Assembly (NCBI GenBank): GCA_034440615.1
Contig: JAOTOM010005186.1
Span: forward strand, 434,001-498,000
Length of the DNA: 64,000 bases
Origin: Ashinkailepas kermadecensis
Lineage: Eukaryota > Arthropoda > Thecostraca > Neolepadidae
Reading direction: 5' to 3'
The notes under the pieces were generated by a model. That model saw nothing but the letters and a program-made list of their open reading frames with translations. It was not told the DNA's origin and searched no databases. A program made the translations under genes and the position numbers. How positions within the stretch are numbered: position 1 is the stretch's first letter; each line of letters opens with the position of its first letter. This document shows, in pieces, positions 6,309 to 61,684 of this stretch.

Positions 6309-6408
6309 AGTTGCAGTCTTCCTTGGATCGCTTCGCACCGGAGAACGCGACAAGATTCTCAGAGATCTTGTTCGACATTCAAAAGTACCAAGTCATCGTC
6401 GGCGCCAG
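6309..6408 (+). CDS. Sema5: Semaphorin-5 exon: N-terminal sema domain
   Basis: The frame reads ELQSSLDRFAPENATRF and then SEILFDIQKYQVIVGAR, which is the typical start of a sema domain (the F-x-x-I/L-x-x-D ... L-x-V-G-A-R strand). The acceptor is a T-rich tract ending TTGCAG. The donor is CCAG|GTATGT, leaving a phase-2 codon AG| that is completed by the first G of the exon at 9898 to give arginine (GAR-DHLYRL). The incoming phase is 1. A hydrophobic stretch lies just upstream in the same frame but has no ATG before a stop at 6248, so I treat it as intron. The last 15 exon bases and the donor are repeated once, 46 bp downstream. Confidence 0.82.
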
Positions 6409-6486
6409 GTATGTTGCGGGTGCTGGTGTGAACACTTCACATCGTCGGCGCCAGGTATGTTGCGGGTGCTGGTGTGAACACTTCAC
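6394..6486 (+). repeat. 46-bp tandem duplication of exon end plus 5' splice site
   Basis: CATCGTCGGCGCCAG|GTATGT and the following 26 bp occur twice. The first copy holds the true end of the semaphorin exon at 6408, and the second places an identical donor after 6454. Confidence 0.92.
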
Positions 6487-6519
6487 GTTCAGTCCGCTTT
6501 TCAATTGCTGAAGGTGAGT

Positions 6520-9060
6520 GCGTGAATTGCCAAATATGGGCAGCTCTGCAACCATAGCAGATGTAACTCTATATTATCCACGTCGGCTACGATAACGCAA
6601 GGAATAATTATGTCAGACGCTGCTCATGTATTCCGCCACTGTCCATGCCCTTACATGGGGAAATCACATTGGCTGGCATAGCCAAACGACTGCACCTTCG
6701 CCACTGGTGAAACGCCGATAAGAAGAGCAGCCGGTATTTGGGCTCCTACTTATTCTCACGTAGCCCCGTGATCCGGCTGCTCCAAGGTTGGTTCGGGCAT
6801 GTTTTTGTCAGCTAAGTTCGAGCTCTGCCCAGCCGTGGGATTATTTGCCAGTGCAAGTCCTGCGCAAGTGCCAGACGAGCGACGGCAATTGCTACAACAC
6901 AGTGCAGTCGAGTCTCCGTGTGTGCCAGTCCCAGGTGCACGGCCATCAATGTTCGTACAGCCACGCGCCTTCAAGCATGCGTGCACAGCTGAATTGAGCT
7001 CAAATGAGATACATTGATCAAATTGCATCACTTGCAATTTGAAATTGCAGAAATGAAAAGTAGCATCTCTCCATGGGACTGAACTCTAGATTCCTGAACA
7101 CAAATCAAGCATGTTACCACTTGTACGTACATGCGGGACGACTGTCTAGTGTCTGCTGCGGTGCGAAGTGCTGCCCTGTATCTGCTGCCTTGTAAGCTGA
7201 CACCCCCCCCTCGCGCAACCGCGCCGCCACGAACGTCCTTTTTGCACAAATTGGGAGTACTTCAGGAGAAATACTGTGGTGAAAGTTGAGAGGTCTCAAA
7301 ATGGAAAGAGCAAATCTCAAACTAAAAGATCAGATGAAACCCTTTTGAGAGTTGCCCGTGAGCGGAAATGCGTCGCGAGCCCGGCCTTTGAATACAGATT
7401 AAGAGAACCTCATGGATAATTTTGGGATAAGAACTGGTAAGCATTCAAATTCAAAGAGCATACCTCTGAGACTAATCAAAGAAAGGAGAGCCCGAAACGC
7501 AGTAACGAAGCAGCTATTACGGCTTCGAAAGCGTAACTGTCGAGTCGGGTCGGGTCTGGTCGGGTGTGAATATAGTAGGTGAAAATAAGACCAAGATTTG
7601 GGGACAAGCGAAGACCTAGCAGCATTCCTCAACAGCTATGCCAAACGCAGAACATCCTGCAAGTTATATTTTTATTTCGTTTTGCTTAATGGTGTCACCT
7701 CGGTCCAAGGCGAAGCAACTAGTACCGCTAGAGCGGCCGTCATCACAGCTATCGCTGGGCTGTCCTCTCCGTCGCTGGAGCGACCTGGGCCCTCTCTAGC
7801 GGTCTGGGGTCCTACCGCGGCTACGGGTCCTCTTCGCCGGGGCAGGCACCCTCTTATCGATCCAGGGCCTCCTCTGTCAGGCCGGAGGCCCTCTTTCAAC
7901 ATCTTGAGTCCCTTCCCCCAGGCTAGGGACCTTTGTACGGCTTGGGCCTATTCGTCGTCCCAAGGACCTTTTCTAACAGCCCGAGGTCCTCTACGGCAAC
8001 TAGGGCCCACTCCGTCATCTCAGGGGCCCTCTTTGACGATCTGCGCCTACCTCCTTCCCCCTTGGCTACGGCACTCGGGTGTGAGCATTTCAAATGTAAG
8101 AAAACCTACTTCGACACTTCAACACAGTGTATTCAGGTTGGGATGCTTTCCATATTCGGCGAAGGAGTTCCACTGTGGCTCATTGCACGTGCATACAAAA
8201 CCGATCTGATTGAGCCAAAATTGGCTGCACTGTTTCTCCGACATGGGGCTCATCTGCCGATCATGGAGTGTGTATGCTACCTCAAACGGAATGCACTACG
8301 CCACATTGTCGGACTAGCATCTGGGACGTTCAGGTCACGTGGTGACATGACGTCACAGGCTGTGACGATCCACGGCGCTAAGCGACCGCCATCCATATCT
8401 GCTACAAAACGTTTTTGTGGAACAAAAAATGTTCCACTTGAAGGAGAGTATGTTATTGAAAGCTGCTAACAATCAAACTTAAAAAGCCACGTCCAGTTCT
8501 GTGTGAAGGAAGTAGGAGTTATAACGCTACGACACAAACGTTTCAAGTTCAAGTTTTAAAAAGGTTACAAAAGCGTTACGGTTGTCCCGGCCGGGTCGCC
8601 CGGATGAACTTGTGTTTACCATATGAACGGGAGTAGACTCGCTCGCGCTTCATCCTCGCTCGCGCCTCATCCTCGCTCGTAACCGTATACACGCGAGTAA
8701 TCTCGCTCGCGCTTCATCCTCGTCCGAGAAGAAAGTTATGAGTGCCTACTGAAGTGCCCTGGACCATCCCGACATTCGGCAACGTAATGGGAGTAGGTCG
8801 CTGGTGCTTAAAGTAAAGCCGGGAATCATTAAGCAGTCGTCTGACAGGAGGATTCACACCAGGCTTTCTTCCCTGTAAATCGTGAGTCTGTGTTCACTGA
8901 TATCTGGCTTCCGAAAATGGGTGGGCTTCTCCGTCTAACCGGTTTTAATAACCTTTGAAGCAAGTTCTTAGCCTGGTAACCGACGCAATGTGGGTGTCTC
9001 AGACGTCGTTTTACGCCATCGTTCTGACCACATCAACATAGGTGTAGGTTTCTGAGAATT
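6520..9060. other. Semaphorin intron, no other gene recognised
   Basis: 7790-8045 contains degenerate C/T-rich units of about 33 bp (GGCCCTCT words). 8637-8725 has short repeats of CTCGCTCGCGCTTCATCCTC. Frames of up to 203 codons at 7598-8469 are low-complexity and resemble no protein. Confidence 0.5.
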
Positions 9061-9061
9061 A

Positions 9062-9160
9062 TTGGGAGGGCACAATGCATGAAGGCAATTGGCAGGCCCA
9101 AATGGATTGGCAGGAGGCACACCACATTGGGTCGCATGCTAAAAGTTAAGATTATTAGAT
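9062..9160 (+). repeat. Fragment of the 37.2-39.1 kb arm repeat
   Basis: GCATGAAGGCAATTGGCAGG, CCCAAATGGATTGG and GCATGCTAAAAGTTA match 37683-37755 in the same order and spacing, so this repeat family is dispersed. It ends in a poly-G tract. Confidence 0.65.
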
Positions 9161-9184
9161 GGGGGGGGAGGGGGGGGGGGGGGG
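9160..9184 (+). repeat. Poly-G tract
   Basis: About 24 G with a single A interruption. It could form a G-quadruplex. Length is likely imprecise in any assembly. Confidence 0.85.
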
Positions 9185-9505
9185 ACAGACCGACCCACCA
9201 GGAGGAGGAAGTACCTTAAAAACATACAAAGCTACACCCCTGCACCCCGAGCACTTGCCAGTGAGTCGTTTGAGGCCCATGGCGACCTCAGATCACATCA
9301 ATATTCGCTGCTGAAGCGCATCCAACACTTCGGCGAAAGCGATATGACGATGCACGGAAGGGAACGAATTCGAAACGGATCTTTGCGGCTAACTCTGAGC
9401 GCAATTGCCCCTGCACCCATGTGCGTAGGAGCGGCCCGAACATTGATGGGGTCGAAGCCATTTTTGACGCCAATTCTTTCCAGTTCCAGTTATTTCTTTT
9501 TACTG

Positions 9506-9925
9506 ACCCCCCTAACCCAGGCTGTGCCCCCAGGGACCACCTGTACCGGCTGTGTGTGTCCCTCTGACCCAGGCCGTGCCCCCAGGGACCACCTGTACCG
9601 GCTGAGTTTGTCCCTCTGACCCAGGCCGTGCCCCCAGGGACCACCTGTACCGGCTGAGTGTGTCCCTCTGACCCAGGCCGTGCCCCCAGGGACCACCTGT
9701 ACCGGCTGAGTGTGTCCCTCTGACCCAGGCTGTGCCCCCAGGGACCACTTGTACTGGCTGAGTGTGTCCCTCTGACCCAGGCGGTGCCCCCAGGGACCAC
9801 CTGTACCGGCTGTGTGTGTCCCTCTGACCCAGGCGGTGCCCCCAGGGACCACCTGTACCGGCTGGGTGTGTCCCTCTGACCCAGGCCGTGCCCCCAGGGA
9901 CCACCTGTACCGGCTGAGTGTGCGT
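9506..9925 (+). repeat. 52-bp minisatellite made of 3' splice site plus exon start, 8 copies
   Basis: Each unit contains a polypyrimidine tract, CCCCCAG and the first 22-24 bases of the semaphorin exon (GGACCACCTGTACCGGCTGA). Acceptor AGs end at 9533, 9585, 9637, 9689, 9741, 9793, 9845 and 9897; only the last leads into the exon. The unit length of 52 shifts the frame every time. Confidence 0.96.
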
Positions 9926-10399
9926 GGTCTTCAGGAGCTGGAGGCAGCACACTGGCCGGCCCCGGAGGCCGTCACCACCATGTGCGCCAACAAGGGCCAG
10001 ACACCTGCCGACTGCCACAACTACGTGCGCGTGCTGCACCGGCGCGGCGAGCGGCTGCTAGCCTGCGGCACGGGCGCCTTCCAGCCGCAGTGCTCGTGGC
10101 GGCGGCTGGACGCGCTGCGCACGGTGCTCGCCAACGAGTCGGGCATCGCCGTGGCGCCCTACTCGCCGCACCTGAACGTGACGTCGCTGGTGACGTCGGA
10201 GGGCGCCGTGTTCGCCGCCACGCCGACAGACTTCTCGGGCCTGGACCCGGCGCTGTTCGGCGGCTCGGCGCGCCTCCGCACCAGGAAGTACGACAGCGGC
10301 CTGCTCAGCACGCCCGACTTCGTCGGCTCGTTCGAGACGGCCGACTACGTGTACACCGTGTTCCGCGAGCAGGCCGTCGAGTACATGAGCTGCGGCAAG
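9898..10399 (+). CDS. Sema5: Semaphorin-5 exon: sema domain, blades 1-3
   Basis: The reading runs from DHLYRLSVRGLQELE through CANKGQTPADCHNYVRVL, LLACGTGAFQPQC and DFVGSFETADYVYTVFRE to EYMSCGK. Conserved cysteines, the N-Y/F-I/V-R-V-L strand, the CGTxAFxPxC motif and the F-V-G-S-F/Y-V-Y-F-F-F-R-E block all fit semaphorins. The donor is AAG|GTGGGT, phase 0. The start is the last of eight identical CCCCCAG acceptors in the upstream 52-bp array. It is chosen because it is the only one whose frame stays open into the exon; the others reach TGA about ten codons in. Expected location is extracellular. Confidence 0.93.
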
Positions 10400-10982
10400 G
10401 TGGGTCGGCTGCGCGGCGCCAGCGCGTTCGACGCTCGCCTTCTGTGTTCCGTGTGGAACATTGACGCAAACACGATGGCACGAAATGCATATGAGCTATA
10501 CATGCCAAGTCTATGCGCAACAAAAGTGGACCTATTTCCTGATCGTACTAATTACGACAGAAGGAAAGCAATCGCTTATATTGCTGTTTCGTACACCTAA
10601 AGTAGGTGTTTTCGCAACGCATAACCTCTTTGCGTGCTGTAAAATCCAGAATAATGTCTGTTCCAACACGAGTGGCGCGAGTGGCAGGCCGCGACTGCCG
10701 GCCGGCACCGACCGGCCGGCGAGCGACTCCACGCGCTGGCCGGCGACCGCATGCGTGCGGACGGGTGCGGCGCGTCCTTGCAGGTCGGCGCCACTGTCGG
10801 CTGCAGGCGGGTCCGACCGGTGCTGTTATGGGCGGCTAATTGGCGGACAGCCTTTGACGCTTCTGCTCCGTCACTGTCGCTAACGGGCCTCTGTCACAAC
10901 ACAGCGGCCAGATACGATCGCCGCACGAACCGCCGGCGCCATCCACGCGACAGCCGTCTGGCGCCAGCCACGTGGCGTGATT

Positions 10983-11135
10983 TGACATAGCGTGACGTGA
11001 CGTGATGTGACGCGACGGTGACGTGACGTAACGTGACGTGACGTGACGGTGATGTGACGTGACGTGACGTGACGTGACGTGACGTGACGTGATGTGACGT
11101 GACGTGACGTGACGTGACGTGACGTGACGGTGACG
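10983..11135. repeat. GTGAC pentanucleotide array
   Basis: About 30 units of GTGAC with occasional GTGATGTGAC and GGTGAC changes. It contains many TGACGTGA words, close to the CREB/ATF half-site pattern, in semaphorin intron 1-2. Any regulatory role is speculation. Confidence 0.92.
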
Positions 11136-11604
11136 TTGACACTGACCGTGCAGTGCAGCGACGTGACCGGCCAGAAGCCGATTAATTTGTGCCAGGCTTA
11201 CTTACAACCGGTACATACCTCTGATGCCTCAGCCTTCTTTTAAAAGCTAAACACGTTCGTCTTTTGTTGTCAGTGTAACTGTAATAGTCGCCGAGTTCGA
11301 AAACCCCAACCTCCAGTCAACCAGCCATCAGCTGAGAGCCACTCCTCATCATACAGTCTGTGCGCACCGCGTCGCCGCCCCAAAGTGCCACCTAACTCGT
11401 CACGTTTCCGAGAACGCAAGTGAGAGGCACACCTGCCCTTTGTGCTGCAAGTGTAGCTGCACGCCATGCTGATGCGCCTGTTCTGCATGTCGCCTGTTCT
11501 GCTGATGCGCCTGACGCGCTATCCGGCCGTTTTTGCGCCGTATCCGTGTACGCCGGCGGAGGTGTGCGCGTGCCGACCACGCTGACACCGGCGGTCGTCT
11601 GCAG

Positions 11605-11795
11605 CGCGTGTACTCGCGGATAGCTCGCGTGTGCAAGAACGACCGCGGCAACCGACGGCGCGTGTGGACGACGTTCGTGAAGGCGCGCCTCAACTGCTCC
11701 GTGTCGGGCGAGTACCCGTTCTACCTGGACCAGGTGCAGAGCATGCACTATCTGGAGCGGGAGGAGCTGCTGTACGCCACCTTCACCACGCCAGA
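11605..11795 (+). CDS. Sema5: Semaphorin-5 exon: middle of sema domain
   Basis: It reads [15 protein letters not shown], then [23 protein letters not shown] and [10 protein letters not shown]. The sequence S-R-I/V-A-R-V-C-K-N-D followed by W-T-T-F-x-K-A-R-L-N-C is a hallmark of semaphorin blade 4. The acceptor is GTCTGCAG, phase 0, joining the preceding CGK. The donor is GA|GTGAGT, phase 2, completed by the C that opens the exon at 24196. The two halves form TTPE/D-NSLAGSAVC, a junction expected in the family, so no exon seems to be missing across the 12.4-kb intron. Confidence 0.93.
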
Positions 11796-11924
11796 GTGAG
11801 TCACGCGCGGCGACGTCAGTCGAGTGACGTCACTGGGGGGGGAATGTGTTCGGCCAGTTCCAGCAGTTGTGACGCCACAGTTGGACAAGTGGTGTGACTA
11901 CGAGCCCTCGGCTGCGGGCTCGGA

Positions 11925-12065
11925 CCGCCGCCACCTCGACGGTCTGAGTTACCACCTCGGCGGTCTGAGTTACCACCTCGGCGGTCTGAGTTACCACCTC
12001 GGCGATCTGAGCTACCACCTCGGAGGTCTGAGTTACCACCTCGGCGGTCTGAGTTACCGCCTCGA
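11925..12065. repeat. 21-bp minisatellite, left of the LINE
   Basis: Seven units of CTGAGTTACCACCTCGGCGG T. The last unit abuts the 3' end of the LINE. Confidence 0.93.
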
Positions 12066-12361
12066 CGGTTTATTTATTTATTTCACAATACATGCCCTCC
12101 ACGTATAGTGGCTATTATGGACAGTCTGGGTATAACTCAGATATTTACAAAGAAAGGATAGATTTGTGGTCAATAGTGGGAACACATGCGCAACAAACAT
12201 TCATACACCAACATAATACAATACCCATATCACTCTGCACTACACACACCGTGCTTGCAACACGAGCTGTAAACGAGTAGTTTATGGAAGTGATATGAAA
12301 GCGATGGCCTAAATGTGAGTGCATGGTGTACACAAATATATTTTGTAAGTGTTTTTTGTGA

Positions 12362-13972
12362 CTAGTGTTGCTCGTGGAGATGAGCTCGTACACGCTTCTT
12401 GAAGTTAGACAGCTTCAATGTTTTTGTTTCAGTAGGGAGTTTGTTGTAGTGGAAGACAGACGAGTAGAGAAATCTCCTGCGGCCCGCCTCTCTGTGTATG
12501 GCTGGTAGATGCAGGTGGTCGTCTGCACGCGTATGACGGTTTCGCAGGGTAGAGTTTGCAGAGATTTGACCGGCAATGTGCGTTGGCTCACCCGTCAGAA
12601 TGATCTTGTGGAGCAAAGTAAGGCTGTGAAATAGATGCAGATCAGCTGCGGTGAGAAGACCCAACTCGTTACGGGAATCAGAAATATGATCAAATTTCCG
12701 TAGACCTGACACGACTCTAGTGGCGAAGTTAATGATTTTGTCTAGTCTGTGGATGTTTGCTGCCGACCCGTTCCCATAAACAGATATGCAGTAGCGGATA
12801 TTGGATATAACTAGGCTATTGACTATAGTGAAGAGGGTACTGGTTGGCAGATGGTGACGCAGATGGTTCAGGGCCATAAGGAATCCAGTGCACTTGCGGA
12901 CCACGACAGCTACATGGGAATCCCACGACATGTGGCGATCAAATGTCACCCCAAGGTTCCTACCCGAATGACTTTCATATATCACAGCGTCCCTAAAGCA
13001 CACTCGTATCGGGGTAATATTGCGAAGATTCTGACGCGATCCGAACGTGAGAAGCTGAGTTTTGGTCGGGTTTACCTTCAAACCGTTATCCAGGAAGTAG
13101 TCGTATAGTTGGTTCAGACATGTCTCCATCTGATTTATCAGATTTGGGAGATCAGATTTGCGACCGGAGATGAGGACCTGGGTGTCGTCTGCGAACTGAG
13201 TGACGTGTGCTACCGGGACGTGCAAACTGAGGTCGTTCGAAAAGATGCAATAGAGGAGTGGACCTAGTGATGAGCCTTGAAAAACACCTACGTTGTTAGG
13301 AAGAACGGAGGAGAGATGCCTGTTTCCGCGTTGATCTGAGATACTAACAGCCTGCGTGTGACCTCCCAGATAAGCCTTAAACCAGTCAGTATCAATTCCA
13401 TGGAGTTCTAGTTTAGTGAGCAGTTTGGTGTTATCTATTACGTCGAAGCATTTACTGAGGTCCAGAATGCAAAGGAGAGCTATTTCCGAACGGTCCATTG
13501 CTGCTAGTATTTTGTCCGAGACTGAAATCAGAGCGGTTTCCGTAGAGTGACGTGGTCTGAAGCCGTGCTGAGTTTGGGCCAGTAGGTGGTTTGCGTTCAG
13601 GTAGTGATAGAGTTGCTTCTGCACTACCCTCTCTGTGATTTTGGCGATAACCGGAACCAATGAGATGGGCCTAAAATTAGAGGGATCCGAAGGATCTCCT
13701 GATTTGTGAATGGGAGTTACTATTGACTGTTTCCAAGTGGAGGGGATATCAGCTGTAGTCAGGCATGTGTTTATAATGTCGAGCAGCACTTCTCCGATAC
13801 AAAAGAACAGAAATTTGATGACCTTAATACAGATCCCGTCGGGTCCGCAAGCACTTGTGCTCCTCATATCCATGACAATTTTGGTTAGCTGTTCGAGGGA
13901 TATGGGTGATACTTTATAGGAGCTGGTAGAGACGCGCGATAGCCGGCAACTGGGAGGTGTGTGTTCAGACAT
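12362..13972 (-). CDS. LINE ORF2, C-terminal part: reverse transcriptase
   Basis: About 536 codons in the frame next to the endonuclease. RT motifs in order: PDGICIKVIKF, TPIHKSGDPS and FRPISLVPVIAK, QHGFRPRHSTETAL, LDLSKCFDVIDN (motif A), GSSLGPLLYCIFSNDL (motif B) and QFADDTQVL (motif C, with the catalytic F-A-D-D). The region after the palm ends in the short Cys-free tail usual for CR1-like elements. The Met at 13972 is not the true start: the residues before it are also element-like, up to the frameshift near 14017. Confidence 0.93.
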   Translation of the reverse strand: MSEHTPPSCRLSRVSTSSYKVSPISLEQLTKIVMDMRSTSACGPDGICIKVIKFLFFCIGEVLLDIINTCLTTADIPSTWKQSIVTPIHKSGDPSDPSNFRPISLVPVIAKITERVVQKQLYHYLNANHLLAQTQHGFRPRHSTETALISVSDKILAAMDRSEIALLCILDLSKCFDVIDNTKLLTKLELHGIDTDWFKAYLGGHTQAVSISDQRGNRHLSSVLPNNVGVFQGSSLGPLLYCIFSNDLSLHVPVAHVTQFADDTQVLISGRKSDLPNLINQMETCLNQLYDYFLDNGLKVNPTKTQLLTFGSRQNLRNITPIRVCFRDAVIYESHSGRNLGVTFDRHMSWDSHVAVVVRKCTGFLMALNHLRHHLPTSTLFTIVNSLVISNIRYCISVYGNGSAANIHRLDKIINFATRVVSGLRKFDHISDSRNELGLLTAADLHLFHSLTLLHKIILTGEPTHIAGQISANSTLRNRHTRADDHLHLPAIHREAGRRRFLYSSVFHYNKLPTETKTLKLSNFKKRVRAHLHEQH

Positions 13973-14015
13973 GTTTGCCTGGCGTTTGACCTCTGCTGAT
14001 ACCTTAGGTCCGACA

Positions 14016-15476: not shown

Positions 15477-15893
15477 GATGAAAACTGGTAGAGCTGTAGA
15501 AAGACGATGAAGAATACTATTGCTGGAGACACAGGAATTCCGAGCGGCACCAAGGCGTCAGTCCGTCAGCCTTCTCCGCTGCAGTGTCGGAAAGAAGACT
15601 ACCACGGGCAGTAGCTGATGATTTAAGCAAGGAAAGTCAATATAGAGAAAGGCGCTGTCACTTCTCCACTCACGCAGTTAAGAAAATACAATCGCTGTGC
15701 AATCACTGTCCGATCACTGCACAATTTCCGTCAGGAATAGCCAGAAGAATTTTCCCTAAGTAGTTCAGCCACTCCGCCGATATCTCACTTCTTCTTCTTT
15801 TTTTCCTGGTACACTACACTTTTCCTGCTTCACTTCTCACTCACTCTCTCTGATTTCACACACTCTCTGAGTTTCACACACCCTATACGGTCT

Positions 15894-16112
15894 GAGTTAC
15901 CATCTCGGCGGTCTGAGCTACCACTTCGGCGGTCTGAGTTACCACCTCGGCGGTCTGAGCTACCACCTCGGAGGTCTGAGTTACCACCTCGGCGGTCTGA
16001 GCTACCACCTCGGAGGTCTGAGTTACCACCTCGGCGGTCTGAGTTACCACCTCGAAGGTCTGAGTTACCACCTCGGAGGTCTGAGTTACCACCTCGGAGG
16101 TCTGAGTTATCA
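15894..16112. repeat. 21-bp minisatellite, right of the LINE
   Basis: Ten units of the same CTGAGTTACCACCTCGGCGG sequence as at 11925-12065, in the same orientation. The LINE therefore split one array. Confidence 0.93.
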
Positions 16113-16769: not shown

Positions 16770-16972
16770 GATCATCGTATCTCAAATATATGAATGCAAA
16801 ATTCTAACAAAATGACTGGATATATTTAGACTTTGGGTCATTATCAACAGTCAAACAACGAAACAGTATCAACAATCCAGTCAACAAATCAACAAACTGT
16901 TGATTATGACACACGGTCGAAATACATCCAGTCATTTTGTTCGAGTTCGCATTCATATATCTGAGATGTCAT
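16770..16972. repeat. 200-bp foldback (MITE-like)
   Basis: The arm around ATATATGAATGCAAAATTC and ACAAAATGACTGGAT (16790-16822) is repeated inverted at 16923-16972, and the inner sequence CATTATCAACAGT also pairs with ACTGTTGATTATG. The result is one nearly continuous hairpin. No ORF inside. Confidence 0.8.
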
Positions 16973-19496: not shown

Positions 19497-19499
19497 TTT

Positions 19500-21915: not shown

Positions 21916-21919
21916 GGCC

Positions 21920-48120: not shown

Positions 48121-48133
48121 CCGTCGCCGACAG

Positions 48134-53235: not shown

Positions 53236-53244
53236 AGTGGCGAT

Positions 53245-53447
53245 GCTGACCCTCAGACAGATGACTGGGACAGCAGCCCTGCTCTATATGTACCCTGTGG
53301 TGACTGGTGCTGACCCTCAGACAGAGGACCAGGTGTGGTGACTGGTGCTGACCCTCAGACAGAGGACCAGGTGTGGTGACTGATACTGACCCTCAGACAG
53401 AGGACCAGGTGTGGTGACTGATACTGACCCTCAGGCAGAGGACCAGG
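53245..53447 (+). repeat. 38-bp minisatellite of 3' splice site plus exon start, 5 copies
   Basis: Units CTGATACTGACCCTCAG/ACAGAGGACCAGG. AGs end at 53256, 53320, 53358, 53396 and 53434. The decoys at 53320, 53358 and 53396 run ACA GAG GAC CAG GTG TGG TGA, a stop at codon seven. Only the last, with GAC in place of GTG, enters the MYND exon. Confidence 0.93.
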
Positions 53448-53601
53448 ACAGCGGTGGTGGCGGATGGCCACTGGAGCCGGGACAACAGCCCTGCTCCGTC
53501 TGCACGCTGCCTACGTCCGGCTACTGCCCGCGCTGTCGAACCCCCTACTGCTGCCGCCAGTGTCAGACGGTCGACTGGGACAAGCACCAGCACACCTGCC
53601 A
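53435..53601 (+). CDS. RRM-MYND-Tudor gene exon 6: MYND zinc finger
   Basis: After an acidic, glycine-rich lead (AEDQDSGGGG) comes QPCSVCTLPTSGYCPRC and then CCRQCQTVDWDKHQHTC. This is the complete MYND pattern: C-x2-C, C-x2-C, C-x3-C and the closing W-x2-H-x3-C, eight zinc ligands in all. MYND fingers bind proline-rich partners. The acceptor after CCCTCAG at 53434 is the last of five similar ones. The donor CA|GTACGT, phase 2, is the first of about eight, because the DWxKHQHTC half of the finger and its donor are repeated downstream in 75-bp units. Splicing at a later donor would add extra half-fingers in frame. Confidence 0.88.
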
Positions 53602-54200
53602 GTACGTGACCCACCCCAACCCCACACACACGCGGTGTCAGACGGTCGACTGGGAGAAGCACCAGCACACCTGCTCGTACGTGACCCACCCCCACCCCAC
53701 ACACACGCAGTGTCAGACGGTCGACTGGGACAAGCACCAGCACACCTACGAGTACCCCCACCCCCACCCCACCACGTGTGTGTGGGGTGGGGTGGGTCAC
53801 GTATACGTGACCCACCCCCACCCCACACACACGCAGTGTCAGACGGTCGATTGGGACAAGCACCAGCACACCTGCCAGTACGTGACCCACCCCCACCCCA
53901 CACACGCAGTGTCAGACGGTCGACTGGGAGAAGCACTAGCACACCTGCGAGTACGTGACCCACCCCCACCCCCACCCCCACCCCACACACACGCAGTGTC
54001 AGACGGTCGACTGGGAGAAGCACCAGCACACCTGCTCGTACGTGACCCACCCCCACCCCACACACACGCAGTGTCAGACGGTCGACTGGGAGAAGCACCA
54101 GCACACCTGCCAGTACGTGACCCACCCCCACCCCACACACACGCAGTGTCAGACGGTCGACTGGGAGAAGCACCAGCACACCTGCGAGTACGTGACCCAC
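53561..54200 (+). repeat. 75-bp minisatellite of MYND exon end plus 5' splice site, 8 copies
   Basis: Each unit has TGTCAGACGGTCGACTGGGA, AAGCACCAGCACACCTGC, a GTACGTGACC donor and a C/A-rich spacer. As 75 is a multiple of three, several copies stay in frame and would encode CQTVDWEKHQHTC half-fingers if exonised. The third unit's spacer is expanded and contains a palindrome. Confidence 0.95.
53776..53832. repeat. 57-bp palindrome inside the MYND array
   Basis: GTGTGTGTGGGGTGGGGTGG, GTCAC, GTATAC and then the complement of the arm, with one extra C. An inverted partial unit has been joined to a direct one. Confidence 0.85.
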
Positions 54201-54762
54201 CACGCTCATCCATCACGCTACATCCATCACGCTAAGCTGACAAATCACCGGCAATACGGGCGCAGAGGTGTGCTTTTTTTTGCTGCCATTCTGCGTTGGT
54301 TGCCCATATTTAAACGTGCTGCAAATCCTTCCCCATGCGTCATAGCATATTGGGCCAGTTGCCGGCTGACCATCTCAGTCCGAGGCAAAAGCTCTCACGT
54401 TTAGTGACATGTTGATGCCTTACTAAGACAAGGGAGGTAAAGATGTCAGAAGTGTACCAACTGAGCCATCGGGATGGCGGTCCCGGTGAGGTTATGTCTG
54501 GATAAACTTACCGCATACACGACAATGCGTTGTTGAGTTAGCTTGAATGCCTGAACTGACGTTCACGTGTTTCTATGTTTGAATGAAGAACTAGCTAACG
54601 GAAGGGATCTCATTCAACAACCGGCCTGCTAGCTTCGAAAAGCGATTGGGATGCGAGTCGTCCAAGTTCACGTTGTCCGATCTGGAAATGTGACGCGCAA
54701 TGATGTGTTGGCGACATGTGACCTGATGTCGTGACCCTGAACCTGTGACCATGTCCCGGCAG

Positions 54763-55195
54763 GCGGGCGCCGTCGCTGGTGGTGTCGGTGGAGCGGGGCA
54801 ACGACCCCGTTGCGGGGCGATCAGTTCAGTACGGCCGTGCGGACGCCGCGCGACTCTCCTCGACCCCGGTCCAGGCCCCGACCTCGACCCCGGCCCCGGC
54901 CCCGCTCAGACGGCCACGCAGTGTGTCGGGTGGCGGTGACTGTGCGGCCGCCAGGGGTCCGTCGCCCAAGAAGGCGCCCACAGCCGCTAACGGACTGCGC
55001 TCTCCGAACGCCTCGCGGGCGCCGCATGTCGGACAGTCGCCGCAGGCTGGACTGTCGCCACGAGCTGGACAGTCGCCGCAGGCTGTGCGGACGCCGCAGG
55101 CTGGACGGTCGCCACAGGCTGGGCAGTCGCCGCAGGCTGTGCGGACGCCGGACCCCCTGGGCCGAGTACTTCTGCAGCCGGGACAGCGGTACGAG
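54763..55195 (+). CDS. RRM-MYND-Tudor gene exon 7: proline/serine linker with short repeats
   Basis: It reads RAPSLVVSVERGNDPVAG, then runs of STP and PAP, then tandem 9-14 residue units such as GQSPQAVRTPQAG, ending LGRVLLQPGQRYE. The acceptor is TGTCCCGGCAG, phase 2, and the donor is GAG|GTAGGT, phase 0. It is probably a disordered linker leading into the Tudor domain. The coding minisatellite (about 55030-55155) and the downstream intronic one are different units. Its last bases are GACAGCGGTACGAG. Together with the donor they found a long array. Confidence 0.6.
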
Positions 55196-55805
55196 GTAGG
55201 TCTCCTCCGGATAGACAGCGGTACAATGTAGGTCTGCTCCGGAGAGACAGCGGTACGAGGTAGGTATCCTCCGGATAGACAGCGGTACGAGGTTGGTCTC
55301 CCCGGATAGACAGCGGTACGAGATAGGTCTGCTCCAGAGAGACAGTGGTACAAGGTAGGTCTGCTCCGGAGAGACAGCGGTACAAGGTAGGTCTCCGGGG
55401 AGACAGCGGTACGAGGTAGGTCTCCTCCAGAGAGACAGTGGTACAAGGTAGGTCTGCTCCGGAGAGACAGCGGTACAAGGTAGGTCTCCGGAGAGACAGC
55501 GGTACGAGGTAGGTATCCTCCGGATAGACAGCGGTACGAGGTAGGTCTCCCCGGATAGACAGCGGTACGAGATAGGTCTGCTCCGGAGACAGCGGTACGA
55601 GGTAGGTCCCCCCGGAGAGACAGCGGTACGAGGTAGGTATCCTCCGGAGTGACAGCGGTACGACATAGGTCTGCTCCGGAGAGACAGCGGTACGAGGTAG
55701 GTATCCTCCGGAGAGACAGCGGTACGAGGTAGGTCTCCCCGGATAGACAGCGGTACGAGATAGGTCTGCTCCGGAGACAGCGGTACGAGGTAGGTCCCCC
55801 CGCAG
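55182..55805 (+). repeat. 30-38 bp minisatellite of exon end plus 5' splice site, about 20 copies
   Basis: Units GACAGCGGTACGAG|GTAGGT plus CTCCTCCGGAGA. The first copy is the true end of exon 7 at 55195. Units alternate CTCC and CTGCTCC spacers, with ATAG and ATCC variants. Confidence 0.95.
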
Positions 55806-56924
55806 AGACAGCGCCGCGTGGCCCCTCGGCCTGGTGCGGTGCCATGCCGACGTATGCCGCTTTGGCCAAGGAGCGTTGTCTGCTGTTCAAGTGGTGATCA
55901 GGGTGACCGGACGTTCTGGTCAGTGCGATTGTCTCTGTGCAGTCGACCGTTCCCAATGCATGCATGTGCACATTGACATATTGTGTGAATGAAGCGTCTA
56001 CCACTATCAGGGTCCACCGATATGGAGGCATTACGTTTGTATATTGGTACATCTTTGTGCCCCTGTTCCAAACTGTAAACAATGATAGTTTGCGGTGAAT
56101 ACATATACATGATATGCAATTATACATGATATAATTGCATCGTCTGTCCTTGAACGGCAGTGGTGATCACGTTCATGTAGTCCACAGCTCTTCAGTGTGG
56201 GCCCTGCTGCCCTTGGCTATCCCGGTTTCTTGGTGGTACGTGCCTGAGCCGGTGGTGAGATTTCTCGTTGTGTTGGCTATTGGCTGTATCATCATGTGTT
56301 GGTTATTGGCTGTGTTGGCTATTATCACCACGTCGTCATTGACGGTTCGCTGCATTCACACGTTCGGCGTGTTGTGCCTTCGGGTGCTTTCACTGAAGTA
56401 AATTCCTGGCGGCGACGTGTTTGCGGTACACATTATTGTGAGTGCCCAGCGTTGCATTCGCAAGTAATGCATCCTTCACGAGTTAGACCAATGTGATGGT
56501 TGTTACTCAAAAGCCGCAAATGAATTGGTATGAAATCGAAGCATGGGCCAAGCTAGCAGCAAACAATGGGGTCCGTGTTATCAGCACTACCCAATGACCT
56601 GCCTGGTCACGTCGTCGACCCCACCGCCAACCACTAGTCCAGCCTGACATGTTCCCTGCGACCTCATCCATCCCTACCGGCAGCATATCTCCCCCCCTCC
56701 TTGCGAGTACCACAGTTGGGCGTTGTCACCTCCGCGATGAACCGTACGTGCCGCTGCGGCGTTCCACTGTGACCCGACATCCCGTTTGGTAGGGCGTCGA
56801 TATCTTCTGTTGTCTGTTGGGCTCGTTCACTCTCGGGCCCAGCTCCCCTGTGGCACCCAGGACCTTATTCGGCAAGGAACCCTTTCCGAGCTATGCATAT
56901 CAACTGACCACCGCCCTGCCCATC
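55806..56924. other. Tudor-gene intron 7, nothing recognised
   Basis: Unique sequence with a small inverted repeat around ATACATGATATGCAATTATA (56100-56135). Confidence 0.45.
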
Positions 56925-57200
56925 GAGTCAGTTGACCCGTCCTGTCGGGTCGGTCCACACCTCCGGTGTGTAGTAGCTGACCCTCGCCCTGCCCGGTGTC
57001 AGTTGACCCGTCCTGTCGGGTCGGTCCCCTCCTCCGGTGTGTAGTAGCTGACCCTCGCCCTGCCCGGTGTCAGTTGACCCCGTCCTGTCGGGTCGGTCCC
57101 CACCTCCGGTGTGTAGTAGCTGACCCTCGCCCTGTCCGGGGGAGTCTGTTGAACCCCGCCCTGTCCGGCCCACTCCCGGTGTGTAGCAGCTCACCCCCGT
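56925..57200 (+). repeat. 63-bp minisatellite ahead of exon 8
   Basis: About four units with GTCAGTTGACCCGTCCTGTC, GGGTCGGTCC and GTGTGTAGTAGCTGACCCTC. CTGCCCGGTG plus CAG/TTGACCC resembles the exon-8 start (CTGCCCGGTGAGCGCCAGCT), so it may be another exon-edge array. Confidence 0.85.
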
Positions 57201-57260
57201 CCTGTCTGGTAAGAGTCAGTTAACCCTATCACGTCCAGTGAGGAGCCCCTGCCCGGTGAG

Positions 57261-57457
57261 CGCCAGCTGAGCCCGACCCACCGCCAGGTGGTGGTGGTGT
57301 ACGCGGCCGACCCAAGCGCCGTCTACCTGCGGCTGCGCCACCAGATGCCGCTGGTGGAGGCGCTCGAGCAGCAGGTGCGGCGCCAGGTGGAGACGCAGCC
57401 GGCCGCGCCGCTGCCCGCCGTCGGCCAGGTGTGCGCCGCCCGCTTCGAGGGCGCCTG
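57261..57457 (+). CDS. RRM-MYND-Tudor gene exon 8: first half of extended Tudor
   Basis: It reads RQLSPTHRQVVVVYAADPSA, then VYLRLRHQMPLVEALEQQV, then AVGQVCAARFEGA. This is the SN-like strand and helix that precede a Tudor barrel, followed by the G-x-x-C-A-A-R-F motif. The donor TG|GTGAGT splits the tryptophan codon and is completed at 59610 to give GAW-YRGSVLAV, a classic Tudor junction. The start is less certain: the acceptor at 57260 fits phase 0, but an acceptor at 57215 would add about 15 residues in the same frame. Confidence 0.85.
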
Positions 57458-57620
57458 GTGAGTGCTACGGCGGGGGGGGGGGCGCCCTGGACCCGGGGGA
57501 GGAATCGCCTGGTGGGTGCTACGGTCGGGAGGGGGGGGCGCCCTGGACCCGGGAGGTGCCTGGTGAGTGAGACGGTCGGGGCGCCCTGGACCCGGGAGGT
57601 GCCTGGTGGGTGAGACTGTC
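57446..57620 (+). repeat. 43-54 bp minisatellite of exon end plus 5' splice site, 4 copies
   Basis: GCCTG|GTGAGTG or GCCTG|GTGGGTG donors occur after 57457 (real), 57511, 57562 and 57605, joined by CGGTCGGG and GCGCCCTGGACCCGGGAGG blocks. Read-through from the exon meets TGA at once. Confidence 0.9.
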
Positions 57621-57635
57621 GGGGGCGCCCTGGAG

Positions 57636-57797
57636 CCGCGGTAGCTCAGTTGGTAGAGCGTCGGACTCTTAATCGCAAGATTGTGGGTTCGAATCTCACA
57701 ACCGACGGCAATACCGAGTCCACCCGCGACCAATCGGCTTGAGAGGTTGGCGACGCTATATGACCTAGCGGTTGAATGCGTCGTAGAAGAACCCAAG
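57636..57797 (+). mobile_element. SINE with a tRNA-Lys-like head and the family-A body
   Basis: The head GCGGTAGCTCAGTTGGTAG to GGGTTCGAATCTCAC resembles tRNA-Lys with anticodon CTT in a CTCTTAA loop, but the anticodon stem has two mismatches. It then runs into CGACCAATCGGCTTGAGAGG and TTGGCGACGCTATATGAC, the same body as family A. GCGCCCTGGAG flanks both sides (57625-57635, 57798-57808), although that word also occurs in the local array. Confidence 0.82.
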
Positions 57798-57808
57798 GCG
57801 CCCTGGAG

Positions 57809-59480
57809 CTGGGGGGCTCCGGCTTATTCCTGACATGCGGCTGTGTGCGGTTTCAGCTATGTTAGCCCGTGTTGCAGCCGGGTGCTAGGTGACTCGCTGT
57901 TAAGCGCCGAGCTTATTTTTATAGACAACTCCGATTGTTTTGCTCACATAGTTAACAGCCATCACAGCTACCCGCGCTGTGCAGCCAATAGCTGTGCTAT
58001 GTCGGGAAAACTAACCGTGTTGCCATTTGAAGTTTTAAGCGTGCTCGGCATGACCGGGTAGGAGATTGAACTGAGCGGGAGGGCCCTGATTCACCAGACC
58101 TGACGGGCCCTGATCGTCTCTCGCCAGCTGAAGAAATTGCTCCGGGAGGATGATGCTGTGTGCAGCCCCAGCGGTGAGCGTGGCACTTGCTGCTGTGCTT
58201 TTTTGTAGACTGTTTGTTTTAACGGATGGAAGGTTATGATGTTCTTAATATTTGTGATTTTCAGACCAGCTGAAATGTGGCCTTGAGAATTGTTCCGCTG
58301 AAAAGTTGTGACTGGCTCAATTTAGATGCAGAAGTGGCAGATTATACAGTTGCTCACTAGCCAACTTTGGATGTTATAGTGGAAATACATTTTCCGTTTC
58401 AGTCATTATTCCTTGACAAAAATGAGATAATCGATCATTTGGATGGCGATAAATATGCTCGCTATCTTATCCGGAACTTTATGAGCTTGGTGGTTCATCA
58501 ACCTCGAAAATTGGGGGGGAAAACCTTAAACCTTTATCACATGTAAATGTATGCTGTATGACCAACGCAGTCGATGCGCCCCTAAGCCCAAATAACCAAC
58601 CAACATGTAAATGTATCGTACGTTGCTCAAGTTTTTTGGTACATGCTGGCATAGTTCATTCCATTTACCCAATGGTTACTTGCTGGTCCGAAGTTGCTCC
58701 TGCGCCATTGGAGGAACATGAAGACATCTGTTCCCTGGGGGAGGGGGGAAGTGATTCTTTTGGGCGTGCCGGACCATAAACTGTTCCCTAGAGATAGAGC
58801 AATTAAATAATCAATTGAAGCGCACCAACAACCGCGCAATGTTCGTCTCACATGAAAGTGGTAGTGATGGCTGTTGGCTAAGATATTATGTTGCTTAGGA
58901 ATAGTGCCATGTATATTTGGAATGTTACATTTCATTCTTTTCGCCTAACTTCCTATTATCTGTATTCAAGATTTATGTCTATTGTTACGTGATCAAATTT
59001 AGAAAATCGCTGTTCTCGGCTACATTAACCAAGCGAAACCGTTCATTTCCTTTGAAGTGACCTTTTGACGTTCTTACTCTTGTCTGGGAATATTCGAAGC
59101 CTTTATAGCGCTGTTTTGGACCTTTCCTTGTTGCATTGAACTCGTTGCGGGTTCCTTTGTGTGTATTATCTTGTATTCTGCCCAAATGGGAACAACTTGT
59201 CTCGGAACATCCGTCCGCATCCAGTGGGTGCCAGTCCCTTCGCGGAGTATTTTCCCGAAAAAGCACGCTCAAGGCCAAGTATCTCCTAAGAGGAAGAGGG
59301 TTTAGCCGTATGTGCCATATGCCGGTACATGTTCTGTCAACACAAGTATCTGCAGATAGGTGCATACCGTGACTATGTTCAGAGCATGTAGCTGCCGTAG
59401 ATTTTGGCTCTTGCCGGGAGGTGCCTGTCCGGGCGTGTAACTTGCGGCACGTGCATGTCCCCACAGTGTAAGTGTACCCA
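57809..59480. other. Tudor-gene intron 8, mostly unique
   Basis: Holds the 50-bp tail insertion at 58553. A 168-codon antisense frame at 58985-59491 has no recognised domain. Confidence 0.45.
58553..58602 (+). mobile_element. 50-bp retroelement tail insertion with 14-bp duplication
   Basis: The insert has the same 3' tail (TCGATGCGCCCCTAAGCCC, then AAATAACCAACCA), bracketed by ACATGTAAATGTAT at 58539-58552 and 58603-58616. It is in the intron between Tudor-gene exons 8 and 9. Confidence 0.88.
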
Positions 59481-59483
59481 GCG

Positions 59484-59640
59484 TGTACCACTGTGCAGTA
59501 CAGATGGCTCAGTGTGCCGTATCCGGGCAGGTACAGACGGCTCTGTATGCCGTGCCCAGGCAGGTACCGGGGCTCGGTACGGACAGTTCAGTGTTCTGTG
59601 CTCGGGCAGGTACCGCGGCTCGGTGCTGGCGGTGCAGGCC
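59484..59640 (+). repeat. Degenerate repeat of 3' splice site plus Tudor exon start, 3-4 copies
   Basis: CTGTGCAG/TACAGATGGCT, CCGGGCAG/GTACAGACGG, CCAGGCAG/GTACCGGGGC and the real TCGGGCAG/GTACCGCGGC, with AGs ending at 59498, 59530, 59563 and 59609. Confidence 0.85.
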
Positions 59641-60003
59641 GGCCAGTACCAGGTCCACTTCCTCGACTGGGGCAACACGGCGGAGCTGTGCGCGGCCGAC
59701 GTCACGGCGCTGTGCGCGGCCGACGTCGCGGCGCTGCCGTCGCCGGCGGCCGCCGTGCCGGCGCAGGCGGTGCGCGCCGCGCTGCCGTGGCGGCCGGCGG
59801 GCGCGGCCGGCGCCTGGAGCTGCCGCCAGCGGCGCGGCCTGGCCGCCCTGGACGGCCGCCCGCTGACGGCCAGCGTGCTCACCGCCGGCCCGCCCGTCAC
59901 CGTGGCGCTCTTCAACGAGGACGGCAAGAGCGTGCTGGACGTGATCGGCGAGGGCGCGCCCGTCGACGCCGCCGACGACGCCCAACTGCCGCTGCAGGCG
60001 CAG
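59610..60003 (+). CDS. RRM-MYND-Tudor gene exon 9: Tudor barrel
   Basis: It reads YRGSVLAVQAGQYQVHFLDW, then GNTAELCAADV. The W-Y-R ... V-x-F-x-D-W/Y-G-N block supplies the aromatic cage that binds methylated arginine in PIWI-interacting Tudor proteins. A second part (ALPWRPAGAAGAWSC, then PPVTVALFNEDGKSVLDVI) looks like the SN-like half that follows. The donor is CAG|GTGGGA, phase 0. The acceptor at 59609 is the last of three or four similar GGGCAG/GTACCG sites. Confidence 0.88.
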
Positions 60004-60469
60004 GTGGGAGTCGCGGGGTGCTGGCGCAGTGCCGGCGGACGCTCGGGTTTGGTGCTGTTCGCTCGTGCTGGGCGACAGTGCGGTGGTGTTGGTTAGTGAT
60101 GAGTTTTGGACGCGGATGTTCAACTGCAGTCCATGGGGTAGGAAGCATGACAATTACATGGCCAGTGTGTACGAACGAGTTTATCCTCGCTGTTTTCACC
60201 AACCCCGTGCACTCCTCGCTCGCTTTTCCGTTGTTCGATCTGCTCCTGTGCCCGATGTCCGGCGGCGGTCCTGTCCGTTCTCCGCCTTTTGTAGCTGAAG
60301 CCCAATCTCCCGAAATACACAGCTTAGTCCGCTGTGCAGCACACACCTTTGTAGCTAAAACCCTGTTTCCTGAATCACACAGCGTGGGCCGCGTTGTAGC
60401 ACCAGCTTTCCCTCATAGCATCATCAACGCGGCAAGTTGCGACGTAAGCGTTACTGGCGACCTTCCACC

Positions 60470-61470
60470 AACACCCCCGCTGTCCGGTAGTGCCGTCTGC
60501 CCGTCAGGTCCCCGCCCCGCTGTCCGGTAGTGCCGTCTGCCCGTCAGGTCCCCGCCCCGCTGTCCGGTAGTGCCGTCTGCCCGTCAGGTCCCCGCCCCGC
60601 TGTCCGGTAGTGCCGTCTGCCCGTCAGGTCCCCGCCCCGCTGTCCGGTAGTGCCGTCTGCCCGTCAGGTCCCACCCCCGCTGTCCGGTGGTGCCGTCTGC
60701 CGGTCAGGTCCCCGCCCCGCTGTCCGGTGGTGCCGTCTGCCCGTCAGGTCCCCGCCCCGCTGTCCGGTAGTGCCGTCTGCCCGTCAGGTCCCCGCCCCGC
60801 TGTCCGGTGGTGCCGTCTGCCGGTCAGGTCCCCGCCCCGCTGTCCGGTGGTGCCGTCTGCCCGTCAGGTCCCCGCCCCGCTGTCCGGTAGTGCCGTCTGC
60901 CCGTCAGGTCCCCGCCCCGCTGTCCGGTGGTGCCGTCTGCCGGTCAGGTCCCCGCCCCGCTGTCCGGTGGTGCCGTCTGCCGGTCAGGTCCCCGCCCGCT
61001 GTCCGGTGGTGCCGTCTGCCGTGGTCCCCGCTGTCCGGTGGTGCGTCTGCCGTCAGGTCCCGCCCCGCTGTCGGTGGTGCCGTGCGGTCAGGTCCCCCCC
61101 GCTGTCGGTGGTGCCGTTGCGTCAGGTCCCCGCCCCGCTGTCCGGTGGTGCCGTCTGCCGGTCAGGTCCCCGCCCCGCTGTGGTGCTTGCCGTCCTGTCC
61201 GGTGGTGCCGTCTGCCCGGTCAGGTCCCCGCCCCGCTGTCCGGTGGTGCCGTCTGCCCGTCAGGTCCCCGCCCCGCTGTCCGGTAGTGCCGTCTGCCCGT
61301 CAGGTCCCCGCCCCGCTGTCCGGTGGTGCCGTCTGCCCGTCAGGTCCCCGCCCCGCTGTCCGGTGGTGCCGTCTGCCCGTCAGGTCCCCGCCCCGCTGTC
61401 CGGTGGTGCCGTCTGCCCGTCAGGTCCCCGCCCCGCTGTCCGGTGGTGCCGTCTGCCCGTCAGGTCCCCG
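60470..61470. repeat. 40-bp minisatellite, about 25 copies
   Basis: Units TGTCCGGTGGTGCCGTCTGC plus CCGTCAGGTCCCCGCCCCGC, in the intron before exon 10. Units between 61010 and 61200 have many single-base losses. Confidence 0.95.
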
Positions 61471-61507
61471 ATGTGGGGCCGCCGGTGATGCTCGCCTCCG
61501 CCCACAG

Positions 61508-61684
61508 CTGCTGGCCGACAGGATGCACCTGGTGGTGCCCACCTCGATGGAGCGCCTGCAACGCGTGACGGCCCAGCTGCGTGACGTCACACTGTACCGA
61601 CCGTACCTCGCCATGGCCCGGCGACTGCAGACGTCCGCCGCCGCCGGTGCGTTACTTGACGTGACGTCACGTCGGTATGGGTGA
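61508..61684 (+). CDS. RRM-MYND-Tudor gene exon 10: C-terminal part (end uncertain)
   Basis: It reads LLADRMHLVVPTSMERLQRV, then TAQLRDVTLYRPYLAMARRL. The acceptor is CCGCCCACAG, phase 0, in frame with exon 9. The frame closes at TGA at 61682-61684, which would make this the last exon. A possible donor GCCG|GTGCGT after 61646 would instead continue the gene, perhaps beyond the window. The peptide is compositionally normal coding sequence but I do not recognise a domain. Confidence 0.6.
   Translation: MLADRMHLVVPTSMERLQRVTAQLRDVTLYRPYLAMARRLQTSAAAGALLDVTSRRYG

Follow-up and report, generated by a model that had tools for sequence, protein, structure and literature searches.

Tandem arrays carrying exon edges and splice sites recur at exon-intron junctions in Ashinkailepas kermadecensis

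Two genes and the arrays at their exon borders

The window (the whole stretch of 64,000 nucleotides that was analysed) contains parts of two genes. Their models rest on the reading frame, on GT/AG sites and on Pfam domains, and repeats played no part in them.

6311..31298, + strand: Sema5-like gene, frame-continuous model with Pfam support; 10 exons in the window, stop codon included (6311-6408, 9898-10399, 11605-11795, 24196-24453, 24604-24799, 25905-26835, 27670-27834, 29297-29486, 30319-30449 and 30904-31298)
47285..61646, + strand: gene with RRM, MYND and Tudor domains, frame-continuous model with Pfam support; 9 exons in the window (47285-47391, 48134-48266, 50013-50080, 50468-50546, 53435-53601, 54763-55195, 57261-57457, 59610-60003 and 61508-61646)

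Together the two genes have 19 exons and 37 junctions, and the frame is open at every join. (The last exon of the Sema5-like gene ends at 31298 in the model and at 31299 in the junction scripts.) The Sema5-like gene matches the Pfam domains Sema (2e-31) and TSP_1 (8e-33), with PSI on the 25680-26918 ORF, and its first exon likely lies outside the window, at C4689:419893-420020. The second gene matches TUDOR (5e-13) and RRM_1 (2e-5), while its zf-MYND match (2e-4, 21.7 bits) is just under the cut-off of 22.7. Of the 7,993 candidates scored in a search of proteins that used the Tudor model, none reached E 0.001. This gene probably extends past the window, and there are candidate exons downstream.

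A junction was scored as crossed when an array found by TRF, with a period of at least 15, extended at least 5 bp beyond it on both sides. By this measure seven of the 37 window junctions are crossed (6408, 9898, 25905, 53435, 53601, 55195 and 57457). The arrays concerned, and an eighth that is more diverged, are as follows.

6394..6486, + strand: 46-bp unit, two copies, at the Sema5 donor between 6408 and 6409; the unit joins 15 bp of exon to 31 bp of intron and the copies are identical (TRF match 100%)
9508..9922, + strand: 52-bp unit, eight copies, at the Sema5 acceptor 9898, sharing 25 bp with the exon (TRF and copy search); AG is intact in 7/7 intronic copies found
25701..25944, + strand: 84-bp unit, 2.9 copies, at the Sema5 acceptor 25905, sharing about 49 bp with the exon (TRF)
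53296..53447, + strand: 38-bp unit, four copies, at the Tudor-gene acceptor 53435 (TRF)
53558..54201, + strand: arrays of a 75-bp unit (TRF rows 53558-53755 and 53804-54201) that carry the end of the MYND-finger exon, about 44-48 bp, across the donor between 53601 and 53602
55182..55813, + strand: 32-bp unit, 20 copies, at the Tudor-gene donor between 55195 and 55196 (TRF and copy search); GT is intact in 15/19 intronic copies found
57447..57638, + strand: unit of 43 to 54 bp (43 bp, 4.5 copies by TRF), at the Tudor-gene donor between 57457 and 57458
59498..59625, + strand: diverged 33-bp repeats that reach up to and into the Tudor-gene acceptor 59610; end drawn by eye

The acceptor at 53435 could also be placed at 53441 or 53447, and with 53447 the array merely abuts the exon. 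At 59610 the TRF row (59498-59567) is not joined to the exon, and there is one copy of the junction at 59552 with 3/22 mismatches. By eye, a stretch at about 53770-53800, between the two rows of the 75-bp arrays, looks like an inverted piece.

The first-pass annotation had described arrays at eight clear exon borders, and these are borne out as seven strict crossings plus the diverged eighth. It had also listed two or three weaker borders (48134, 57261 and 61508), and these do not hold: the nearby arrays end about 10, 38 and 120 bp before the junction, and the junction 22-mer has no copy within five mismatches at 48134 or 61508, nor within six at 57261, 57267 or 57288. Most non-exonic arrays in these genes lie elsewhere: 19 of the 26 cross no annotated junction. 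Of the 50 arrays in the window, 5 sit wholly within exons.

Recurrence in other genes and the chance expectation

Expansion of a tandem array contributes nothing unique to the sequence, and for this reason arrays were collapsed to a single unit each before chance was estimated; should arrays take up sequence from their flanks, the excess over chance would be lower than stated here. A null based on total coverage was rejected for the same reason: TRF arrays make up 22.5% of the 264-kb region, so that about one random position in five would lie in an array and 8% of junctions would be unremarkable, but this counts the growth of arrays as if it were unique sequence. When the single unit of each array was placed randomly in both window genes, about 1.1-1.2 crossings were expected against the seven seen (P between 5e-5 and 1e-4 for margins of 4-6 bp). 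Matching for local GC raised the expectation at the 37 junctions to 1.3-3.9 (P 0.0005-0.1). The window was chosen for its junction arrays, so it is the sample from outside it that carries weight.

That sample was drawn from the CCT, myosin and kinesin genes of the 908-Mb genome. It covered 47/52 CCT, 54/78 myosin and 10/125 kinesin matches, and sites were chosen from the match tables with the sequence unseen. The sampled stretches extend roughly 200-400 bp past most exons, so that arrays lying farther into introns are truncated there or absent from the sample. Exon ends lacking an acceptable splice site were excluded before the strict counts (CCT 11/94, myosin 30/108, kinesin 4/20); two of the excluded CCT ends, the acceptors of L039 and L058, resemble crossings.

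Arrays cross 15 of the 177 outside junctions, about one in twelve (CCT 6/83, myosin 5/78, kinesin 4/16), in comparison with 4.7 expected under even scatter of the collapsed units (P 1e-4). At junctions fixed by both neighbours, 10/120 are crossed against 3.2 expected under even scatter, and the even-scatter P stays at or below 0.005 when any one family is dropped. A relaxed splice matrix gives 8/90 for CCT and 7/93 for myosin, but admits doubtful acceptors (L039 at 311, L083 and L091), and the strict counts are therefore preferred. With the window, there are 22 strict cases. The units of the crossing arrays are 27-101 bp long and both donors and acceptors are affected. Additionally, a coding-potential search of the 264-kb region pointed to five further neighbouring Sema/Tudor exons; judged by eye, 3 of about nine of their ends are crossed, and these are excluded from the counts. 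Arrays that join exon edges to splice sites, at donors and acceptors of unrelated genes, are thus a recurrent feature, as the first-pass annotation had described for two genes, and they overlap junctions more often than evenly scattered duplications would.

GC content and the origin of the arrays

The density of units rises with GC content: between 1.2 and 2.3% of collapsed positions lie inside a unit below GC 0.55 and between 4.1 and 8.4% above it. Exon edges are GC-rich. GC-matched expectations at the 177 outside junctions range from 6.7 to 13.2 against the 15 observed, with P 0.004 on a gene-poor background and P 0.35 when the introns of the two window genes, which give the figure of 13.2, are the background. 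The share due to GC is imprecise because the expectation shifts in this way, and the arrays of the window are themselves part of every background that includes it. Among the 120 best-placed junctions, 10 crossings compare with 4.6-8.7 expected (P 0.019 to 0.37), and without kinesin 11 compare with 8.2 (P 0.21). Taken together, the rise of unit density with GC and the GC-richness of exon edges limit any junction-specific excess to about two-fold at most, and a hotspot of that kind is unproven. Earlier it had been proposed that duplications start preferentially at junctions; the excess over even scatter stands, but a preference for junctions as such is not established.

The position of the units relative to the junction was also profiled. 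A unit is present at 2/177 positions 40 bp inside the exon, at 14/177 junctions (15/177 in the junction counts, which handle edges slightly differently), at 18/177 positions 12 bp into the intron, at 16/174 at +25, at 7/161 at +60 and at 2/145 at +160. Density is therefore highest between the junction and about +25 in the intron, has dropped by +60 and is very low at 40 bp into the exon, where 1.1% is seen and local GC alone predicts 3.8-8.6%. At +12 the GC-matched P is 0.005 on the 264-kb background and 0.0001 to 0.08 on the others, uncorrected for the several offsets, and from +12 to +25 the excess after GC matching is about two-fold on the 264-kb background. This residue in the first 25 bp of the intron suggests that GC may not be the whole cause. 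The motif CAGGT occurs in 38/167 array units compared with 21.8 in dinucleotide shuffles (outside the window, 24/118 compared with 14.7), which hints at a role for splice-like sequence or at unannotated junctions. G4 motifs at arrays are not enriched beyond GC (4.2% of 167 compared with 2.5% of GC-matched controls, P 0.3).

We consider it probable that the arrays reflect GC-driven tandem duplication that is tolerated at exon edges, likely purged within exons, and lengthens introns. Arrays would then be frequent at junctions most likely because GC-rich DNA is prone to tandem duplication, exon edges have a high GC content and copies made at the edge are predicted to be harmless. The minisatellites are likely to have grown from short tandem duplications spanning the exon-intron edge. 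The first duplication may have arisen by gap filling at a staggered break, as the two identical 46-bp copies at 6408 have just 1 bp in common at their ends, and later expansion could have been by unequal exchange or slippage. Duplications within exons would be purged, though incompletely, given the wholly exonic arrays of the window. A duplication at the edge is predicted to do no harm for as long as splicing continues to use the copy adjoining the exon. If the exon-proximal site is used through exon definition, the surplus copies would become intron and the intron would grow.

It is possible, though we think it doubtful, that exon-intron junctions are themselves places where duplication starts, beyond any effect of GC, for example through breaks linked to initiation of transcription or replication. 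The three-fold excess over even scatter, the residue at +12 to +25, the P value on the gene-poor background and the enrichment of CAGGT speak in favour of this. Additionally, short duplications in human cancers, with a median length of about 100 bp, occur in excess at constitutive replication origins, which in turn are reportedly over-represented at promoters and exon/intron junctions (PMC11685606). The duplications described there are somatic and human, however, and the arrays here have no G4 signal. Against a hotspot, the excess is nearly gone when junctions are compared with window-gene introns of equal GC, and it weakens for the best-placed junctions and without kinesin. It is equally doubtful that the junction is a germline hotspot in this lineage, at which splice sites seed intron-lengthening minisatellites genome-wide, leaving thousands of junctions with arrays of near-identical competing sites; were this so, it would be a natural experiment in how the spliceosome selects one site.

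An origin in intron gain, in which tandem duplication of an exon segment containing AG/GT creates the intron and the arrays are its remnants, follows a described model (PMC3443670 and PMC2891723), and had been mentioned in the first-pass annotation as part of a possible explanation. We regard it as highly improbable here. The model expects a shared segment at both ends of the intron, and this is absent: across 77 introns, 80-bp donor and acceptor flanks of the same intron are no more alike (mean 8.2) than cross pairs (mean 8.3), and none exceeds the 99th percentile of cross pairs, although one equals it. With no intron above background likeness, intron gain by duplication is not supported. Where both ends of an intron carry arrays (6408 and 9898, and a kinesin intron in L109), their units are different. 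Duplications of this type, if old, could have decayed.

An artefact of assembly or of the gene models is very unlikely, even though the two 46-bp copies at 6408 are identical. The copies in the six other crossing arrays of the window are diverged (TRF match 83-97%), arrays recur on other contigs in the CCT, myosin and kinesin genes, and the window exons join in an open frame throughout. One 30-bp array, which lies about 40 bp inside an intron and crosses no junction, is common to two contigs that are 98.2% alike. The concern about assembly errors is accordingly weakened.

Splice-site copies and related systems

GT or AG is intact in 127 of 142 intronic copies, and with a simple matrix 103/142 score no more than 1 bit below the true site. 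As most copies keep the dinucleotide, the exon-proximal site is probably selected by position. It could instead be argued that the arrays are under selection and that surplus copies aid splicing or yield regulated isoforms, which we think unlikely. Array by array, GT/AG is retained above the mean of the other dinucleotides (Wilcoxon P 0.001), and the reading frame of the exon at 25905 is open upstream throughout the 84-bp array, so that alternative acceptors there would add amino acids. However, the neighbouring columns are about as conserved as the splice dinucleotide, and we read the retention above the mean as central columns aligning better, with selection on the copies as the less favoured reading. 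In the two largest donor arrays GT is lost from 5/20 and 4/19 of the copies located, the unit length is a multiple of three in 12/28 with no clear bias, and the many arrays in both genes that cross no junction also argue against selection.

Individual genes whose splice sites lie within a minisatellite are already known. The IFI6-type minisatellite, reportedly described in a 1995 paper, is said to involve a single donor of one gene, where the edge of one exon holds tandem copies that each include a 5' splice site. The arrays reported here are like it in that the repeated unit combines a splice site with exon sequence (all 22 strict cases). They are unlike it in affecting donors and acceptors, in some genes of all five families examined and at about 8% of the outside junctions. 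Like ordinary VNTRs or minisatellites, they match in head-to-tail units of roughly 10-100 bp.

In human segmental duplications, variable internal tandem repeats at exon-intron boundaries alter intron structure, with 27 curated intron modifications (PMC2812944). Those repeats are linked to new introns and to alternative transcripts of recently arisen human paralogues, whereas the introns here look lengthened rather than newly gained. In C. elegans there are minisatellites near alternatively spliced regions, and copies of junctions are not among the features described in the available text of PMC4039745. The human ATP11A variant c.3322_3327+2dup, which is linked to hearing loss, is an 8-bp duplication of the junction that doubles the donor; the outer copy is used and the exon gains 8 bp (PMC9035003), in contrast with the gene models here, which keep the inner copy. 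Among open-licence papers we found no genome with splice-junction arrays at a frequency of about 8%. If that frequency applies genome-wide, intron lengthening becomes a countable question, as does the choice of the spliceosome among 2 to 20 near-identical sites, some 30-100 bp apart. Repeat masking and gene prediction may also misplace exon edges in such genomes.

Tandem arrays at exon edges

Gene models in the window rest on reading frame, GT/AG sites and Pfam domains, and repeats were not used in building them. In both genes the frame is open across every junction:

Window, C4689:434001-498000 of the assembly
6311..31298 (+), Sema5-like gene, 10 exons within the window
47285..61646 (+), RRM + MYND + Tudor gene, 9 exons within the window, two acceptors ambiguous (53435/53441/53447 and 57261/57267/57288)

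Seven of the 37 window junctions are crossed by arrays detected with TRF (at least 5 bp on each side), and the unit repeated there combines the splice site with 8-49 bp of exonic sequence. The first-pass annotation had listed eight clear borders of this kind; seven are crossed by TRF arrays and the eighth, 59610, is a diverged case. At the three borders it had called weaker, 48134, 57261 and 61508, a search for copies of the junction sequence gave nothing, and the nearest arrays stop about 10, 120 and 38 bp short, respectively. Array expansion adds no unique sequence and each array was therefore treated as one unit in collapsed sequence. When the two genes' 26 non-exonic arrays were placed at random, with two rows that belong to a single 75-bp array counted as one, they hit a mean of 1.1-1.2 junctions, compared with 7 observed (P 5e-5 to 1e-4 with margins of 4-6 bp).

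Because the window had been selected for the pattern, junctions were sampled elsewhere in the same genome (4,689 contigs, 907.7 Mb in total), which its genes suggest to be that of an animal. Exons of CCT chaperonins, myosin heads and kinesins, families with long conserved domains, were found by Pfam search; stretches around part of the located exons were taken, and a splice matrix, the reading frame and the profile length served to position the junctions. Of these 177 junctions, 15 carry a crossing array (CCT, 6/83; myosin, 5/78; kinesin, 4/16), with acceptors (8/97) and donors (7/80) both affected; among the 120 junctions fixed by both neighbours the number is 10. The observation is confirmed and recurrent in the genome. 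CCT genes on contigs C2923, C1603, C3813 and C4391 have no strict crossing array. Clear cases among the retrieved stretches are:

L039, CCT donor array, 68-bp unit, six copies
L042, CCT acceptor array, 76-bp unit, six copies
L109, kinesin arrays at both ends of one intron

Inspection by eye of neighbouring Sema/Tudor exons adds 3 crossed ends (498870, 510591 and 512867 on C4689, the contig of the window) out of about 9; these are outside the counts. Two contigs (stretches L022 and L023) are 98.2% alike over 3.2 kb and share one CCT exon with its array; they may represent both haplotypes of a single locus. Among the kinesin matches, some with identical profile ranges lie on different contigs, suggesting more haplotype pairs or paralogues.

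Local GC and position across the exon edge

The background was the 264 kb that contain the window and its surroundings, with 167 arrays making up 22.5% of the sequence; 2.66% of collapsed positions lie inside a unit at the same margin. With even scatter 4.7 crossed junctions are expected among the 177 (15 observed, P 1.2e-4) and 3.2 among the 120 best placed (10 observed, P 0.0017). Unit density, however, is 1.2-2.3% up to a local GC of 0.55 and 4.1-8.4% above it, and mean junction GC is 0.58-0.61 for the outside sample and 0.63 for the window.

GC-matched expectation for 177 junctions (15 observed), with P for these and for the 120 best placed
Background; expected; P (177); P (120)
Whole 264 kb; 9.2; 0.05; 0.10
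264 kb minus annotated exons and flanks; 8.5; 0.03; 0.067
Gene-poor; 6.7; 0.004; 0.019
Deep introns of the two window genes; 13.2; 0.35; 0.37

When kinesin is left out, 11 are observed and 8.2 expected (whole 264 kb, GC-matched, P 0.21). Much of the junction excess is explained by exon edges being GC-rich in a genome where tandem duplications abound. The proposal that repeats overlap junctions more often than random positions holds against even scatter, but a preference is not established once GC is matched: with 6.7-13.2 expected against 15, the effect beyond GC is between about 1.1- and 2.2-fold. A junction-specific origin of the arrays is possible.

The outside sample gives this profile of positions that fall within a unit: 2/177 at -40 bp and 8/177 at -12 bp on the exon side, 14/177 at the junction itself, and 18/177, 16/174, 7/161 and 2/145 at +12, +25, +60 and +160 bp in the intron. 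At -40 bp 1.1% is seen where GC predicts 3.8-8.6%, so we read the scarcity of duplications inside exons as selection. Five of the 50 window arrays sit wholly inside exons. At +12 bp 10.2% is seen against a GC prediction of 3.7-7.0% (P 0.0001 to 0.08 depending on background, uncorrected for offsets tried), and some excess over GC may therefore remain at the intron edge. Arrays at 48123 in the window and in L036, L038, L041, L084, L085, L087 and L075 outside it end 6-16 bp upstream of the acceptor without including it, as though arrays might fill the intron as far as the splice signal.

Origin of the arrays and intronic copies of splice sites

The 46-bp pair at 6408 consists of identical copies sharing 1 bp at their ends, and the TRF overhang, a rough measure, is at most 1 bp in 23 of the 42 two-copy arrays listed. 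Short shared ends would fit a first duplication made when a staggered break was filled in and its ends were joined. Beyond what GC accounts for, arrays show no enrichment of G4 motifs. CAGGT is present in 38 of 167 units, compared with 21.8 in dinucleotide shuffles (24/118 and 14.7 outside the window), which hints either at a role for splice-like sequence as such or at some arrays lying on junctions absent from the annotation. The data give no support to intron gain by duplication, which had been offered as a possible explanation: in none of 77 introns does the similarity between donor and acceptor flanks rise above the 99th percentile of cross pairs.

Copies were compared in 28 arrays (8 in the window, 3 at neighbouring exons, 15 strict outside and 2 by eye) with 142 intronic copies. 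GT or AG is retained in 127 of these, and 103 have scores no more than one bit below that of the real site. In an array-by-array comparison, retention of GT/AG exceeds that of the average dinucleotide (P 0.001); adjacent columns are about equally conserved, and we therefore make no claim of selection for or against the copies. Because the exon models use the exon-proximal copy, splice-site choice is probably positional. Unit length is a multiple of three in 12 of the 28 arrays.

In human IFI6, one donor is reportedly located inside a minisatellite. Our literature searches found no genome-wide account of junction-spanning minisatellites. Published work describes tandem repeats located where exons meet introns in human segmental duplications (PMC2812944), tandem duplication as a route of intron gain (PMC3443670, PMC2891723), a disease duplication over a donor site (PMC9035003), short duplications in human cancers at replication origins, the origins being said to be enriched at exon/intron junctions (PMC11685606), and, in Daphnia pulex, repeats with units >8 bp that are far less frequent in introns than in other regions (PMC3152781).

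Other elements in the window

A non-LTR-like retroelement with endonuclease-like and reverse-transcriptase ORFs lies in a Sema5 intron (12362-15557, -). It is flanked by arrays at 11931-12069 and 15888-16114 with a 21-bp unit in common, as if inserted within a minisatellite. Between the two intron-rich genes is a prenyltransferase alpha subunit gene (33781-34941, -; PPTA repeats, E 4e-48) in a single open frame. The tRNA-like genes at 41422-41497, 43553-43628 and 62487-62562 appear by eye to be heads of a dispersed SINE-like repeat, also present near 44855, 57645 and 63870. Finally, a GTTAG-rich array at 38130-38330 has flanks that by eye are inverted copies of a short segment.
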